DNA of 64,000 nucleotides, taken from Hyphomicrobium sp. (GTDB lineage Bacteria; Pseudomonadota; Alphaproteobacteria; Rhizobiales; Hyphomicrobiaceae). The notes under the pieces were generated by a model, which was not told the origin of the DNA, did not search any database, and saw only the letters and a list, made by a program, of their open reading frames with translations. Positions 7,926 through 12,895 of this stretch are shown here, piece by piece. Every line of letters begins with the position of its first letter. Positions within the stretch are counted from its first letter, which is position 1. Location: positions 62,001 through 126,000 of the forward strand of contig JASBSU010000037.1 in assembly GCA_030148725.1 (NCBI GenBank), given 5' to 3'. The translations under genes were made by a program, and so were the position numbers.

Positions 7926-9233
7926 ATGATCCCGCGCTATAGCCGTCCCGAGATGGCGTCGATCTGGGATGCCGAAACCCGTTTTCGCATCTGGTTCGAG
8001 ATCGAGGCGCATGCCGCCTCCGCCATGGCAGAACTGGGCGTCATTCCGCATCTCGCCGCCAAGAAGATCTGGGACAAGGGGCGCCACGCTCAGTTCGACG
8101 TCGCACGCATCGACGAGATCGAGCGCGAGACGAAGCACGACGTGATCGCCTTCCTCACGCACCTTGCGGAGATCGTCGGTCCGGAAGCACGCTTCGTGCA
8201 TCAGGGTATGACGTCGTCGGACGTGCTCGACACCTGTCTCAACGTGCAACTGAAGCGCGCCGCCGACCTGCTGATCGCCGACGTCGATGCACTGCTCGCG
8301 GCATTGAAGCGTCGGGCGCTGGAGCACAAGACGACCCCGACCATCGGGCGAAGCCATGGCATCCACGCCGAGCCGGTGACGTTCGGCCTGAAGCTTGCCT
8401 TCGCGCATGCCGAGTTCCAGCGCGCACGCGAGCGGCTCGTTGCAGCGCGCGAGGAGATCTCGACATGCGCGCTCTCCGGCGCGGTCGGCACCTTCGCCAA
8501 CATTGATCCGCGCATCGAGGTGTATGTCGCCGACAAGATGGGATTGAAGCCCGAACCCGTCTCGACACAGGTCATCCCGCGCGACCGGCACGCGATGTAC
8601 TTCGCGACCCTCGGCGTCGTTGCGTCGTCGATGGAGCGGCTGGCGATCGAGATCCGCCACCTGCAGCGGACCGAGGTGCTCGAGGCGGAGGAGTATTTCT
8701 CCGCCGGCCAGAAGGGCTCGTCAGCCATGCCGCACAAGCGCAACCCGGTGCTGACCGAGAATCTCACCGGCCTCGCCCGCATGGTGCGCGCCTACTCGAT
8801 CCCGGCGATGGAGAACGTTGCGCTCTGGCACGAACGCGACATCTCGCATTCCTCCGTCGAGCGGATGATCGGCCCCGATGCGACGGTGACGCTCGACTTT
8901 GCTCTGGCGCGGCTTACCGGCGTCATCGACAAGCTCGTCGTCTATCCGGAAAACATGCAGAAGAACCTCGACAAGCTTGGCGGCCTGCATAACTCGCAGC
9001 GCGTCCTGCTGGCGCTCACGCAGGCGGGAGCCTCGCGCGAGGACGCTTATAGGCTCGTGCAGCGCAATGCGATGAAGACGTGGCTGGAGGGCAAGGACTT
9101 CCTTGCCGAGCTGAAGGCCGACAAGGACGTCACCGACAAGGTGAAGCCGGCCGAGCTCGAGGCGATGTTCGACCTCGGCTACCACTTCAAGCACGTCGAC
9201 ACGATCTTCGAGCGCGTGTTCGGGAAATCCTAA
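7926..9233 (+). CDS. purB: Adenylosuccinate lyase
   Basis: PurB splits SAICAR to AICAR plus fumarate and adenylosuccinate to AMP plus fumarate. The 435-residue length with a start at 7926 (MIPRYSRPEM) is normal for bacterial PurB; the upstream extension is not conserved in type. The fumarase/aspartase superfamily signature 'SSAMPHKRNP' is at residues 265-274, with the conserved 'TSSDVLDT' near 97-104 and 'GRSHGIHAEP' near 140. It stands apart from purC by 3.7 kb but on the same strand. Confidence 0.96.
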   Translation: MIPRYSRPEMASIWDAETRFRIWFEIEAHAASAMAELGVIPHLAAKKIWDKGRHAQFDVARIDEIERETKHDVIAFLTHLAEIVGPEARFVHQGMTSSDVLDTCLNVQLKRAADLLIADVDALLAALKRRALEHKTTPTIGRSHGIHAEPVTFGLKLAFAHAEFQRARERLVAAREEISTCALSGAVGTFANIDPRIEVYVADKMGLKPEPVSTQVIPRDRHAMYFATLGVVASSMERLAIEIRHLQRTEVLEAEEYFSAGQKGSSAMPHKRNPVLTENLTGLARMVRAYSIPAMENVALWHERDISHSSVERMIGPDATVTLDFALARLTGVIDKLVVYPENMQKNLDKLGGLHNSQRVLLALTQAGASREDAYRLVQRNAMKTWLEGKDFLAELKADKDVTDKVKPAELEAMFDLGYHFKHVDTIFERVFGKS

Positions 9234-9263: not shown

Positions 9264-9539
9264 TTAGCCGGACGGCGGGGTGACGTTCTGCGGCGCGACA
9301 TCGTTCGGCTGCGGTCCCAGCCGGCGGCGGAACTCCTCCTGCGTCTTGCCGCAGACATTCTCGCACGGGATGCCGTCACCGTCGCCGTCCCGGATCGTTT
9401 CGCCGCAAACGGTGAGGTGATGGTAGGCCTCGGCGCAACTGTACATCTCGCTGCACTTCTTCTCGATGCAGTCGAAGGCGGCGACAGGTGTCGCTAGGAC
9501 CAGAGCGGCGGCGCTGGCCAAGTTTATCGTTGCGCGCAT
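9264..9539 (-). CDS. Small secreted Excalibur-type calcium-binding protein
   Basis: The 91-residue protein has a signal peptide (residues 1-21, ending AAF) and six Cys (24, 29, 35, 45, 59, 63). The 'D51-G-D-G-D-G-I-P-C-E60' motif is the Excalibur DxDxDG-CE signature, an extracellular calcium-binding loop related to that of EF hands. The Cys spacing suggests disulphides in the periplasm. It converges on purB with a 30-base gap. The role is unknown. Confidence 0.75.
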   Translation of the reverse strand: MRATINLASAAALVLATPVAAFDCIEKKCSEMYSCAEAYHHLTVCGETIRDGDGDGIPCENVCGKTQEEFRRRLGPQPNDVAPQNVTPPSG

Positions 9540-9639: not shown

Positions 9640-10731
9640 ATGCAGGGGCCGCACGATCGGACGTTCTGGAGGCGCGCGGGCATCACTGTGGGCGTGCTCA
9701 TCGCCTATTACGTCGGCATGCACGTTCCTCTTCCCGGACTCGACGCCAAGATCGTCGGTCAGCTGGGGCAGGCCAGCGGCAGCGGGGCCGTCGGGCGCAT
9801 CTCGATTCTTTCGCTCGGAATCATGCCTCTCCTCAACGTGCTGATCCTGGCAGAGATCCTCAAGCTGATCCTGCCGCGCGTGCGCCAGTGGGAGATGGCC
9901 TCGCTGCGCCATCGGGACCGGCTGAACCTCATCGTCGTCTGTTGCGCGCTGGCAATGGCGCTGATCCAGGCCGGCGGCCTCACTTCGGCGCTGGAGGACG
10001 TGTCCGGCCTCGTCATCGATCCGGGCCGTGACTTCCGCTTCATCGCGATCTTCACGCTCATCGGCGGCGCTGCGCTGGCCATCACCTTCGCCACGATCAT
10101 CGACCGGGCGGGGCTCGGCTGCGGGATGTGGCTTTTGTTTCTCGCACCGGCGCTGATCGATCTGCCGTCCAGGCTCGCCGGCATGACACTGCTGACCTGG
10201 CGCGGTGACTACAGCGCGGATCTCATCGTACTTGCGCTTGCCTACTCCGCGGTCGCGGTGGCGGGTGTCGTCAGCATCGTCATGGCGGCGCGGGCGGCAC
10301 AGCCGACCGTCACCACGTGCGTCTGGACGCCGCTCCTGGTGAACTCTGCGCTGGTGCCCGTGCTGTTCATGGCGACATGGCTCGGGACGATGGACGTCGA
10401 CGAGGCGGTGAATTTTGCAACCAGCGCCAGTCCGTTCTGGTATCTGGCACTCGTGCTCGGCGTCTGGCTGACCGTGTGGCTCTATGCGCGTTCGTTCGCG
10501 CAGGCTGGCGAGGCAAGCCCCATTCCCGTCGCCCCGGTGGCTGGAACGCTCGCGGCGATCCTCGTCGCAGCACCGATCTTAGAGGCTTATCTCGGCGTCC
10601 TGCTGCCGCTCGGCAGCACGCAATTGATTGTCGCCGCGGCGGTGGCGGCGACGCTGATCATTCGTTGGAGGAGCCGAGAGGTCTCGGCGGATCCGGTTGG
10701 AGAACCCGCCGAGGCTGCCGATAACCCTTAG
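9640..10731 (+). CDS. SecY-like membrane protein, reduced paralogue
   Basis: The 363-residue polytopic protein has about ten hydrophobic segments. Its first half aligns by eye with SecY: 'VPLPGLDAK' (29-37) matches the SecY post-TM1 'IPIPGIDA', 'GRISILSLGIMP' (52-63) matches the SecY TM2b 'SIFALGIMP', and 'GLVIDPG' (123-129), 'TIIDRAGLGCGM' follow in order. Normal SecY is ~440 residues; here the plug segment is shortened and the two large cytoplasmic loops (between TM6-7 and TM8-9, which bind ribosome and SecA) are almost gone. There is no secE, secG or secA nearby. An alternative start at 9592 exists; 9640 is favoured by AGGGA upstream. It may be a membrane insertase-like relic or a new activity. 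Confidence 0.75.
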   Translation: MQGPHDRTFWRRAGITVGVLIAYYVGMHVPLPGLDAKIVGQLGQASGSGAVGRISILSLGIMPLLNVLILAEILKLILPRVRQWEMASLRHRDRLNLIVVCCALAMALIQAGGLTSALEDVSGLVIDPGRDFRFIAIFTLIGGAALAITFATIIDRAGLGCGMWLLFLAPALIDLPSRLAGMTLLTWRGDYSADLIVLALAYSAVAVAGVVSIVMAARAAQPTVTTCVWTPLLVNSALVPVLFMATWLGTMDVDEAVNFATSASPFWYLALVLGVWLTVWLYARSFAQAGEASPIPVAPVAGTLAAILVAAPILEAYLGVLLPLGSTQLIVAAAVAATLIIRWRSREVSADPVGEPAEAADNP

Positions 10732-11522
10732 TATCCGTCCTCTGGACGGAACAGGTAGCTGGCGCGCAGCATGATCTGCGAAATCTCGGCGTTGCCGCTG
10801 ATAGCTGCCGGCTGGCCGATCGGGATGCCGATCAAGCATAGGTCGCAGGAGGCGGCCGTGCTGAGGTTGAGGTCGATGTATTGGTAGTCGACACCGACGA
10901 TGAAACTTGGGTGCCAAGCGTATTCGAGGCCGCCACCGAGCGTCCAACCGTCGACGAAATCCGTTTTCGAGAAGGTCGCCGTTCCACCGCCACCGTTCGG
11001 TCCGCTGGCGCTGAATTTGGCGTCACCGCCGACCCAGCCGCCCTTCACGAACACCATGTAGCGATCCCAGGCAAAGCCCAGGCGCGGCTCGACGAAGAGC
11101 AGCCAGTTGATCTGTGTAGAGAAGGTGTCGGTGCTGACAACCGGGCTCACCGTCTGATTGAGGCCGGTGCCGAGGAACGAAGCCTCGAGACCGAAGACCC
11201 AGTTGCCCATCTGGAGGTTGCCGCCACCGAACACTCCGCCCGCGAAGCTGCTGGGTGTGAACTTGGCGCCGGAGCCAGCGTTGAACTCGGAGAAGTTCTC
11301 CGACCAGCCGATATCACTCCACATGCCGCCGAGCTTGCCGCCAATGTAGAAGCCGCTCCAGTCGCTGACGAGCTGAGAGTCGGTCATGGGTGTGCCCGGT
11401 ACCCAGCGACCGGGTTCTCCCGGTCGCCAGCCATCGGCGTTCGCCTGATGTGCGCCCATTGCGAGTGCACCGGCCGCGATAGCGACCAGCGCGAGATGCC
11501 TCGCGGCCTTTGGCTTGCTCAT
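10728..11522 (-). CDS. Outer-membrane beta-barrel protein (Omp25/RopB-like)
   Basis: The 264-residue protein has a signal peptide (cleavage after ANA, ~29) and then the 'WSGFYIGGKLGGMWSD' opening characteristic of Omp25-like eight-stranded barrels. It has alternating aromatic strands, 'VEPRLGFAWDRYMVFVKGG' near the middle and a C-terminal strand ending in 'RASYLFRPEDGY'. Such proteins stabilise the outer membrane of Hyphomicrobiales. It converges on the SecY-like gene, the two stop codons overlapping by four bases. Confidence 0.85.
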   Translation of the reverse strand: MSKPKAARHLALVAIAAGALAMGAHQANADGWRPGEPGRWVPGTPMTDSQLVSDWSGFYIGGKLGGMWSDIGWSENFSEFNAGSGAKFTPSSFAGGVFGGGNLQMGNWVFGLEASFLGTGLNQTVSPVVSTDTFSTQINWLLFVEPRLGFAWDRYMVFVKGGWVGGDAKFSASGPNGGGGTATFSKTDFVDGWTLGGGLEYAWHPSFIVGVDYQYIDLNLSTAASCDLCLIGIPIGQPAAISGNAEISQIMLRASYLFRPEDGY

Positions 11523-11624: not shown

Positions 11625-12206
11625 ATGAAAACCGCAGACGTCGACATTCTCATCGTTCCTGGCTGGCTCAACTCGGGCGACGACCACTGGCAATCCCGCT
11701 GGGAGCGCAATCTCGTTACGGCGCGGCGCATCGAGCAGGACGACTGGCACGCGCCGAGCAAGGACGAGTGGGTGGCAAACATTCTATCTGCCGTCGCAGC
11801 GACGACGAAGCCGGCGGTGCTCGTCGCCCACAGCCTCGGCGTCATCGCCGTCGCGTACGCGGCAGCAAAGCTCGACAAAGCGAAGATTGCAGGAGCGTTT
11901 CTGGTGGCGCCCGCCGACGTCGACAACTCGTCGACGTGGCCGTCGAACCAGGGGCACGTCTGGCCAGCGGACAGCTTCGGCTTTGCGCCGGTGCCGATGG
12001 CGCCCCTCGGCTTTCCGGCGCTGCTGCTCAACGCCTCCGACGACCCCTACTGTTCGCAGGAGCGCGCCAAGGCGATTGCGGCCGCATGGGGCGCAGAATT
12101 CGTGGATGCGGGGCAGGCCGGCCACATCGCCGACCAATCTGGGCACGGTCCGTGGCCCGATGGCCTGCTCCGCTTTGGAAAGTTTCTAGCCGGCCTCAAG
12201 GGCTGA
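11625..12206 (+). CDS. RBBP9/YdeN-family alpha/beta hydrolase
   Basis: The 193-residue cytosolic protein has the small serine-hydrolase layout: 'VPGWLNSGDDHWQSRWE' (oxyanion loop), nucleophile elbow A68-H-S70-L-G72, acid 'NASDDPYC' (Asp139/140) and His167 in 'QAGHIAD'. The N-terminal extension that is open upstream lies in noncoding or antisense sequence; 11625 is the first ATG with homology. Substrates of this family are poorly known. Confidence 0.88.
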   Translation: MKTADVDILIVPGWLNSGDDHWQSRWERNLVTARRIEQDDWHAPSKDEWVANILSAVAATTKPAVLVAHSLGVIAVAYAAAKLDKAKIAGAFLVAPADVDNSSTWPSNQGHVWPADSFGFAPVPMAPLGFPALLLNASDDPYCSQERAKAIAAAWGAEFVDAGQAGHIADQSGHGPWPDGLLRFGKFLAGLKG

Positions 12207-12223: not shown

Positions 12224-12547
12224 TCAGCGCGACGACTCGACTTCGCCAACCGCCTTGGCGAGCAATTCGATCATCTGGGTGCGGATATCGTTGTCCGAGA
12301 TCGCCAGGCCCGCGGCTGCGAAATCACCCTTAATTTTGCGAAAAACGTCCTCGTCGCCCTTCTCTTCCAGGTCCGCCTTTACGACCGAGCGGATGTAGTC
12401 GGGCAGCGCGTCGGCCCCGATCGAGAGCTTGGCGGCGGCCCACTCGGCCAGGAGCTTGTTGCGCCGGGACTCAGCGCGAAACTTAAGGTCTTGATCCAGC
12501 GCGAACTTTTTCTCAAAACCCTTCTCGCGATCGTCGAACGTGGTCAT
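12224..12547 (-). CDS. F1F0-ATPase inhibitor subunit zeta (DUF1476)
   Basis: The 107-residue protein opens with 'MTTFDDREKGFEKKFALDQDL', the hallmark of DUF1476/zeta, and continues with 'FRAESRRNKLLAEWAA' and a helical 'EDVFRKIKGDF' part. In Paracoccus this subunit blocks ATP hydrolysis by the F1 rotor, acting through its basic N-terminus. Nine extra N-terminal codons are open but the homology and the usual length favour 12547. It is divergent from purC, not near atp genes. Confidence 0.9.
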   Translation of the reverse strand: MTTFDDREKGFEKKFALDQDLKFRAESRRNKLLAEWAAAKLSIGADALPDYIRSVVKADLEEKGDEDVFRKIKGDFAAAGLAISDNDIRTQMIELLAKAVGEVESSR

Positions 12548-12895
12548 TCGTATCTCCACCAAGAGCATGTCGCCGCAGGGCCGCGCCCCGTGGCTGGAAA
12601 GGTTGTATCGCCTGCCAGCAAATCAACGGCCGGGGGAGCCATAACCCTTCCCTTTCCGGGGTTCAATCACCAGTTCCAAACCGTTAGCGACACTTGCGAC
12701 CTTTCCCATCCTTAAGATTGTTTCCGGGGATGGGTTCGGCTAGTGTCGGGGCCGGTGTCCGATGTTGCCAGCCTATCCCCCAAAGCGACACCAGCAGACA
12801 AGAAAAAATTCGCAACTACAAAGACTTGGCTCTTGTCAGCGGGTCTTTCTAAGCGTCGCAGCACACGTAATTTCTCGTCAAAGGACAATGGCTCA
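12548..12895. other. Divergent control region between zeta and purC
   Basis: About 350 bases. The purC frame stays open ~50 codons upstream, but that part has poor protein character, and conserved PurC sequence starts at the ATG at 12896. CCATCC and GGATGG repeats occur near 12709-12736. No gene is seen. Confidence 0.45.

Follow-up and report, generated by a model that had tools for sequence, protein, structure and literature searches.

What becomes of a SecY protein once the parts to which SecA and ribosome binding are assigned have gone? The question is raised by one gene in a 64,000-nucleotide stretch of DNA from the soil bacterium Hyphomicrobium sp. (assembly GCA_030148725.1, contig JASBSU010000037.1, positions 62,001 to 126,000; hereafter the window). 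An open reading frame (ORF) on the forward strand, running from an ATG start to a TAG stop, encodes a 363-residue product that we call SecYL and that the original prediction, made from the letters of the DNA, took for a SecY derivative with the ribosome and SecA docking loops removed. As SecY is essential and found universally, much can be learnt from relatives that nature has released from SecA and the ribosome. Comparison of SecYL with its relatives and with true SecYs establishes, at the sequence level, that the plug and docking loops are lost, that the pore positions are retained, that new residues have become conserved and that the gene is under purifying selection. Together these results suggest a SecY-type protein put to new use.

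A SecY paralogue without the plug and most of the docking loops

The homology of SecYL to SecY is far above chance. The Pfam model PF00344 (SecY) matched residues 55-217 with E 2.2e-13 (50.7 bits, gathering cut-off 32.2), and two Rhizobiaceae members of the family also scored above this cut-off (37.0 and 40.7 bits). With the SecY equivalog model TIGR00967 we obtained E 1.2e-19, yet the score of 70.6 bits lies below the cut-off of 253.6; SecYL is an annotation trap, above the Pfam threshold for SecY and below that for the equivalog. All 13 matches in a PDB sequence search (E <= 10) were SecY. Profile against profile, the whole of SecYL matched SecY with E 1.5e-38 and both halves were collinear. 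The C-terminal half alone gave E 2e-4 at a probability of only 47%, with swapped-half controls at E 0.78 and 0.88, and a C-half profile built from SecYL relatives matched true SecYs with a best E of 1.9e-12; judged from these profiles, SecY ancestry extends to this half, beyond the N-terminal half covered by the original prediction. The SecY identity first proposed from motifs (VPLPGLDAK, GLVIDPG and others, which are present and in SecY order) is thereby borne out by profile search, alignment and relatives. An AlphaFold model with five sequences as input has ten long helices, but a predicted local distance difference test score (pLDDT) of 49 and a predicted template modelling score of 0.35. 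In a Foldseek search of the PDB with this weak model, SecY chains take the first six places (E 1.1e-4 to 1.5e-3, against 0.89 for the match after them), with TM-scores near 0.3 and root-mean-square deviations of 17-19. An antisense reading of the region was rejected, as it meets a stop after 50 codons, and a consensus scan for a sigma-70-like promoter at SecYL found none where 0.4 were expected by chance, which says little.

The same genome has a normal secY on a separate contig (400.9 bits) whose product is 451 residues long. SecYL was rightly predicted to be shorter than SecY, although the figure of about 75 residues was somewhat low: the difference from the product of its own genome's secY is 88. 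Both secY and secE lie on contig C55, apart from the SecYL contig, in agreement with the isolation from sec genes noted at the outset. The whole genome gave one SecE match, and its SecA matches are on contigs other than that of SecYL; the two strong ones stand at contig ends, so that the genome has one or two secA genes.

Passages in PMC8082313 and PMC8675477 assign SecA binding to the cytosolic loops of SecY and ribosome binding mainly to loop C5, and describe transmembrane helices (TM) 2b and 7 as the lateral gate. In E. coli SecY numbering, which we use throughout for positions such as 93, 188 and 275, gaps occur in at least 60% of 20 paralogues at 61-70 (plug), 242-264 (loop C4), and 344-357 and 361-373 (C5). 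The window's SecYL retains 2 of 13 plug, 4 of 26 C4 and 7 of 34 C5 positions, whereas all of these positions are present in 43 further SecY loci (19 from the class and 24 from the order; one genome or more had already entered the SecY counts). Across 27 aligned SecYL sequences (rows), 24 keep no more than 3 of the 13 plug (TM2a) positions, with 6-7 in G019, G090 and G033; 24 keep at most 16 of the 26 C4 positions, with 22, 21 and 17 in G248, G294 and G033; and 25 keep at most 18 of the 34 C5 positions, with 31 and 33 in G019 and G033. The mean net charge falls from +4.97 in 31 SecYs to -0.25 in the 20 paralogues for C4, and from +2.97 to -0.10 for the C-terminal tail. At residue 357, which matters for SecA, 13 of the 20 paralogues have a gap and 2 have Arg. 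The alignment of relatives confirms the predicted reduction of the plug and of C4 and C5, and supports the view of SecYL as a SecY derivative with the docking loops removed.

In contrast to these losses, the pore ring is kept. Its six positions are hydrophobic or aromatic in nearly all of the 20 paralogues, the exceptions being two Ala and one Gly at 408 and one Cys at 191, and the side chains are enlarged, with Phe at 191 in 12/20 and at 187 in 10/20. The TM3 residue Gln131 is invariant (20/20). SecYL also has conserved residues of its own: Glu stands for SecY Gln93 in 27/27 rows, Trp for Ser188, flanked in TM5 by the pore-ring positions 187 and 191, in 24/27, and a TM7 Trp is present in 25/27. 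Gln93, Ser188 and Ile275 occur in the 31 SecYs from the order and E. coli, and the 43 further SecY loci have Gln93 and Ser188 without exception (43/43 each), with Ile or Met at 275. Judged by homology, the new residues lie in helices that line the pore and lateral gate in SecY. Since several of the 27 rows are near-copies, these counts do not represent 27 independent events. The signature was defined on 20 rows and then checked on seven later ones, where Glu93 and the TM7 Trp each occur in 7/7 and Trp188 in 5/7; some of these later rows had been found by a C-half profile that already contained the TM7 Trp, while none had been found by a profile containing Glu93, except via a tblastn query. Three further candidates for the signature were dropped: Ser76 and Gly81, because E. 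coli SecY has both and these positions vary among the SecYs of the class and of the order, and Trp105, which was present in 19/20 of the first rows and only 3/7 of the later ones.

Origin, selection and distribution of the family

A single branch (support 100/98) sets the paralogues apart from the SecYs in a tree of 53 rows, and the same separation received an SH-like approximate likelihood ratio test (SH-aLRT) value of 99 in a tree of 59 rows from which the signature columns had been removed. The branches are long and the programme warned of long-branch joins, so the root of the SecYL family is unsure. Divergence within the family is far greater than in SecY: mean pairwise identity is 28% (minimum 18%; 26 rows) vs 78%, and identity within a genus is 44-51% in three pairs vs 96-97%. 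The window's SecYL is 37% identical to those of G001 and G002. For the pair G001-G002 the nonsynonymous over synonymous rates (dN/dS; NG86) are 0.055/0.323 for SecYL vs 0.004/0.194 for SecY, and for G116-G117 they are 0.061/0.369 vs 0.006/0.263. Two independent close pairs thus give a dN/dS of about 0.17 for SecYL and 0.02 for SecY, seven to eight times higher in SecYL. All 20 full-length rows used have open frames. From its sequences, then, SecYL is an old SecY paralogue retained by selection. Purifying selection, together with residues of its own that are conserved over at least four families of the order, argues against decay and leaves the earlier description of SecYL as a degenerate second SecY unsupported.

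The row sets were composed as follows. A contig-end fragment of G064, which could be ordinary SecY, the apparent near-copies of G291 in G244 and G270, Shinella record H2 and a truncated Rhizobium tumorigenes copy were left out; Shinella L231 is among the seven later rows and not among the 27. Alignment A4 was built from 18 of the 20 rows, without L040 and L101, and A6 and A7 are chosen subsets. A partial copy in G033 (L033:2195-3208, G033:C574) has a reduced plug, Glu93 and Trp188, and retains Ile275 and much of C4 and C5. By its sequence it looks intermediate between SecY and SecYL, with the qualifications that it stops at a contig end and that the genome has 5% contamination.

Full-length SecYL is found in 18 of 103 genomes of the window's family, Hyphomicrobiaceae, in addition to the partial copy in G033. 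By genus the counts are 6/8 in Hyphomicrobium, 2/2 in g5, 1/1 in g13, 6/8 in g21, 2/6 in g23 and 1/22 in g10. On the contigs of named genomes a profile of four aligned relatives detected four SecYL relatives, all from Hyphomicrobium, where an earlier scan with the single SecYL protein had found none. Among 397 genomes sampled from the order, the C-half profile at E <= 1e-15 identified copies in 12 genomes, from families f1, f41, f50 and f23, a lower bound since the profile missed G107, which has a copy. In a class sample of 385 genomes, none of the matches listed from outside the order covers profile positions 1-27 or beats E 1.9e-12, and by their coverage they look like ordinary SecYs.

SecYL also occurs on plasmids of Shinella and Sinorhizobium sp. 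RAC02, where the copies are labelled 'hypothetical protein' or are unannotated in the incomplete gene table of PLSDB. The truncated copy mentioned above is on a plasmid of Rhizobium tumorigenes (L229:7965-8510), and a short match on Neorhizobium galegae plasmid CP090555.1 (1673203-1673348) may be a SecYL remnant; these two hint at loss in some Rhizobiaceae. Genes annotated secY are also present on plasmids outside Hyphomicrobiales (records H8-H10 and H19, from Paraburkholderia fungorum and Comamonas odontotermitis).

The SecYL locus

The features of the locus are collected in the table below. The original prediction had placed SecYL next to an Excalibur-domain gene and found it to converge on an outer-membrane barrel gene by four bases. 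Both statements are correct, with the stop codons overlapping at 10728-10731, but these two neighbours are local ones, and the recurrent neighbour in Hyphomicrobiaceae is a serine hydrolase. Where the stretch reaches far enough, gene order in this family is purB, SecYL, serine hydrolase, ATPase inhibitor zeta, purC, purS, purQ and purL. The gap between SecYL and the hydrolase is below 120 bp in 10 of the 18 loci (17 plus the window), three of which are ATGA overlaps. In G019 and G090 SecYL adjoins the hydrolase and no purine gene was found in the stretch.

Features of the SecYL locus, in window coordinates
Feature	Position	Strand	Evidence or remark
purB, upstream border of conserved site	7926..9233	+	Upstream in 13/18 Hyphomicrobiaceae loci
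Excalibur-domain protein, divergent neighbour	9264..9539	-	Pfam; linkage to SecYL inconsistent
SecY-like paralogue (SecYL), 363 aa	9640..10731, stop codon included	+	ORF, Pfam SecY, profile-profile match, Glu/Trp signature
Plug deletion site, at the junction of codons 48 and 49 (E. coli 61-70 missing)	9781..9786	+	Alignment
Glu72, TM2b, replaces SecY Gln93	9853..9855	+	27/27 rows; Gln in all SecYs compared
Trp164, TM5, replaces SecY Ser188, beside pore-ring positions	10129..10131	+	24/27 rows
C4 remnant between TM6 and TM7, about 12 residues	10285..10320	+	Alignment
Trp229, TM7	10324..10326	+	25/27 rows; opposite SecY Ile275 in most, not all, alignments
C5 remnant between TM8 and TM9, about 14 residues	10489..10530	+	Alignment
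Outer-membrane beta-barrel gene, convergent	10728..11522	-	Pfam OMP_b-brl 3.3e-9; in the loci mapped, a neighbour only in Hyphomicrobium
Serine hydrolase (PF06821)	11625..12206	+	Next gene on SecYL strand in 18/18 Hyphomicrobiaceae loci
ATPase inhibitor subunit zeta (PF07345), past hydrolase; then purC, purS, purQ, purL	12224..12568	-	

We considered the hydrolase as a dedicated partner of SecYL and rejected it. Hydrolase matches (E <= 1e-10) are present in 86 of the 103 family genomes, most of them without SecYL and some with only a weaker paralogue, and a search of nine loci (f41, f50, G435, Shinella and Sinorhizobium) gave no hydrolase match at 1e-4. Being frequent without SecYL and missing elsewhere, it is a stable neighbour whose role as a partner is unproven. 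Of the window's neighbours, only a distant substrate-binding protein, in f50, was found at these nine loci. At 20 sites around the hydrolase in apparently SecYL-free genomes, a search for a hidden, diverged SecYL gave no match at 1e-4; both border genes were found at 14 of these sites, and 8 of the 14, with the borders spaced 0-175 bp, are true empty sites. At L139 (G007) the interval between purB and the hydrolase holds an open frame of about 219 codons instead of SecYL, with no SecYL match, and different insertions occupy other sites. At the six Hyphomicrobium loci that carry SecYL (the window and L037-L041) the beta-barrel gene separates it from the hydrolase; this gene was not found at the two without SecYL (G004 and G007). 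As G004 and G007 are sisters in the SecY tree, this co-absence may be one event.

Possible functions and comparison with known systems

What SecYL does has to be read from what it has kept and lost. Our preferred reading, which we hold tentatively and at somewhat less than even confidence, is that SecYL may be a passive, motor-free lateral-gate protein for hydrophobic helices, an insertase or holdase independent of SecA and the ribosome. With the docking loops lost, neither SecA nor the ribosome would be expected to dock, and SecYL would thus be out of the export that they drive. It would then act on its own in the membrane, perhaps with the one SecE of the cell as a shared partner, and its remodelled lateral gate might bind a hydrophobic helix, peptide or lipid and either hold it or admit it passively into the membrane. 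Such a role would be accessory and dispensable. The original suggestion of an insertase-like protein or of a channel for lipids or peptides may likewise hold. Several observations weigh against this proposal. The bulky Trp and Phe side chains might just as well close the channel; loop length is largely retained in some members (C4 in G248 and G294, C5 in G019); the AlphaFold model is weak, as described above; apart from the distant protein in f50, no neighbour is shared with the nine loci compared outside Hyphomicrobiaceae; and the pairing of the TM7 Trp with Ile275 is missing from the alignment with the 43 SecY loci, which leaves the register of TM7 uncertain.

Fast evolution and patchy presence would also fit a decoy or immunity role, in which SecYL imitates SecY, captures toxins or natural inhibitors that enter through SecY or attack it, and so spares the real channel. 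According to part of PMC7858069, two contact-dependent inhibition (CDI) toxins use SecY to enter E. coli, and one of them is fully resisted through a change in TM7; part of PMC12247911 deals with fast-evolving orphan immunity genes. On the Shinella plasmid SecYL adjoins a DKNYY protein and has a YcxB protein nearby, both above their Pfam cut-offs, and on the Sinorhizobium sp. RAC02 plasmid it lies near tetratricopeptide repeat (TPR) proteins, with a DUF1963 protein above cut-off about 9 kb away. However, Pfam gave nothing for the Sinorhizobium gene labelled YcxB, and the TsiV and SMI1/KNR4 matches there stay below their cut-offs. Immunity-like neighbours were seen only at these two annotated Rhizobiaceae plasmid loci, in a survey that did not look for neighbouring toxins; none was recognised at the f41, f50 and G435 loci, in ORF maps inspected by eye without a domain search, and none of the window's Pfam-scanned neighbours is immunity-like. 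PADLOC gave no match for SecYL, and SecY goes unmentioned in the sections drawn on here of the polymorphic-toxin survey PMC3482391. Two-partner-secretion (TPS) domains were rejected as a correlate of SecYL, being not clearly commoner with it (5/18 vs 11/85 genomes, Fisher p 0.15) and not found in the window's own genome or in any of 14 control genomes. We therefore regard the decoy as unlikely, if conceivable. We give equally little credence to a broader form of the idea, in which a separate branch of the SecY family may have abandoned export driven by motor and ribosome and come to serve Hyphomicrobiales as an independent accessory device in the membrane, for instance a decoy for toxins entering through SecY. 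If this did prove true, SecYL would be a natural SecY with a job other than protein export.

A plugless protein with its pore positions retained might instead pass small ions such as chloride, possibly gated by Glu72. That Hyphomicrobium, like Methylobacterium, is a methylotroph counts for such a channel or leak valve. Part of PMC4271186 reports SecY mutations at the interface of plug and pore that were predicted to leak chloride and that aided growth of Methylobacterium on dichloromethane. We find the channel doubtful nonetheless, as the pore ring remains hydrophobic and the Phe residues at 187 and 191 make it bulkier, which argues for a tighter seal, and a constitutive leak would be costly. 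Decay without function could be read from the fast divergence within genera and from G001 and G002, from the absence of SecYL in two genomes of the genus and from the truncated plasmid copy of Rhizobium tumorigenes. It is already largely refuted by the open frames, by the low dN/dS in both close pairs and by Glu93, kept in every row in the face of such low pairwise identity, and we consider it very improbable. Equally improbable is an alternative translocon still working with SecA in the manner of the accessory SecY2. Membership of the same family, weak SecY2 profile matches and a nearly full-length C5 in G019 and the partial G033 copy speak for it; against it, the SecY2 models score about 20 bits where their cut-offs are 250 and 353, little is left of the loops to which SecA and ribosome binding are assigned, and the genome's SecA matches are elsewhere.

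Whichever role SecYL has, no description of the family was found among the papers listed by a search of the open-access PMC literature for second, paralogous, truncated or SecY-like proteins. SecYL indicates which parts evolution retains once export has, as we infer, ended, namely the helices, the pore ring and the Gln of TM3, and which are dispensed with (the plug, C4 and C5); it can also be tested as a candidate insertase, channel or decoy of SecY origin.

With SecY and Sec61alpha (PF00344, TIGR00967) SecYL shares the collinear halves, the hydrophobic pore ring, Gln131 in TM3 and the Gly motifs of TM5. It differs from them in being plugless, in having lost most of C4 and C5 along with the positive charge of C4, and in the Glu and Trp replacements; unlike secY, its gene sits among purine genes and evolves with the higher dN/dS given above. 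Gram-positive bacteria with the accessory SecY2 (TIGR02920) likewise possess a diverged additional SecY beside their SecY. The SecY2 gene is associated with secA2 and adhesin genes, whereas the neighbours of SecYL are purB and a hydrolase, and SecYL scores 20.3 bits with the SecY2 model, below its cut-off of 249.6. The plug-region mutants of SecY predicted to leak chloride, in the part of PMC4271186 cited above, resemble SecYL in having lost the seal of the plug, and differ from it in that SecYL has a gene of its own and a bulkier pore ring. A plugless ancestor, proto-SecY, is suggested by Lewis and Hegde in a passage of PMC8675477. This hypothetical protein and the Oxa1/YidC insertases resemble SecYL in their plugless, SecY-like core, which might function without SecA. 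SecYL itself looks like a derived paralogue that has lost parts and not like an ancestral form, since its two halves are still fused and the partial G033 copy appears transitional. As such, it may offer a living parallel to the proposed plugless ancestor of SecY and YidC.
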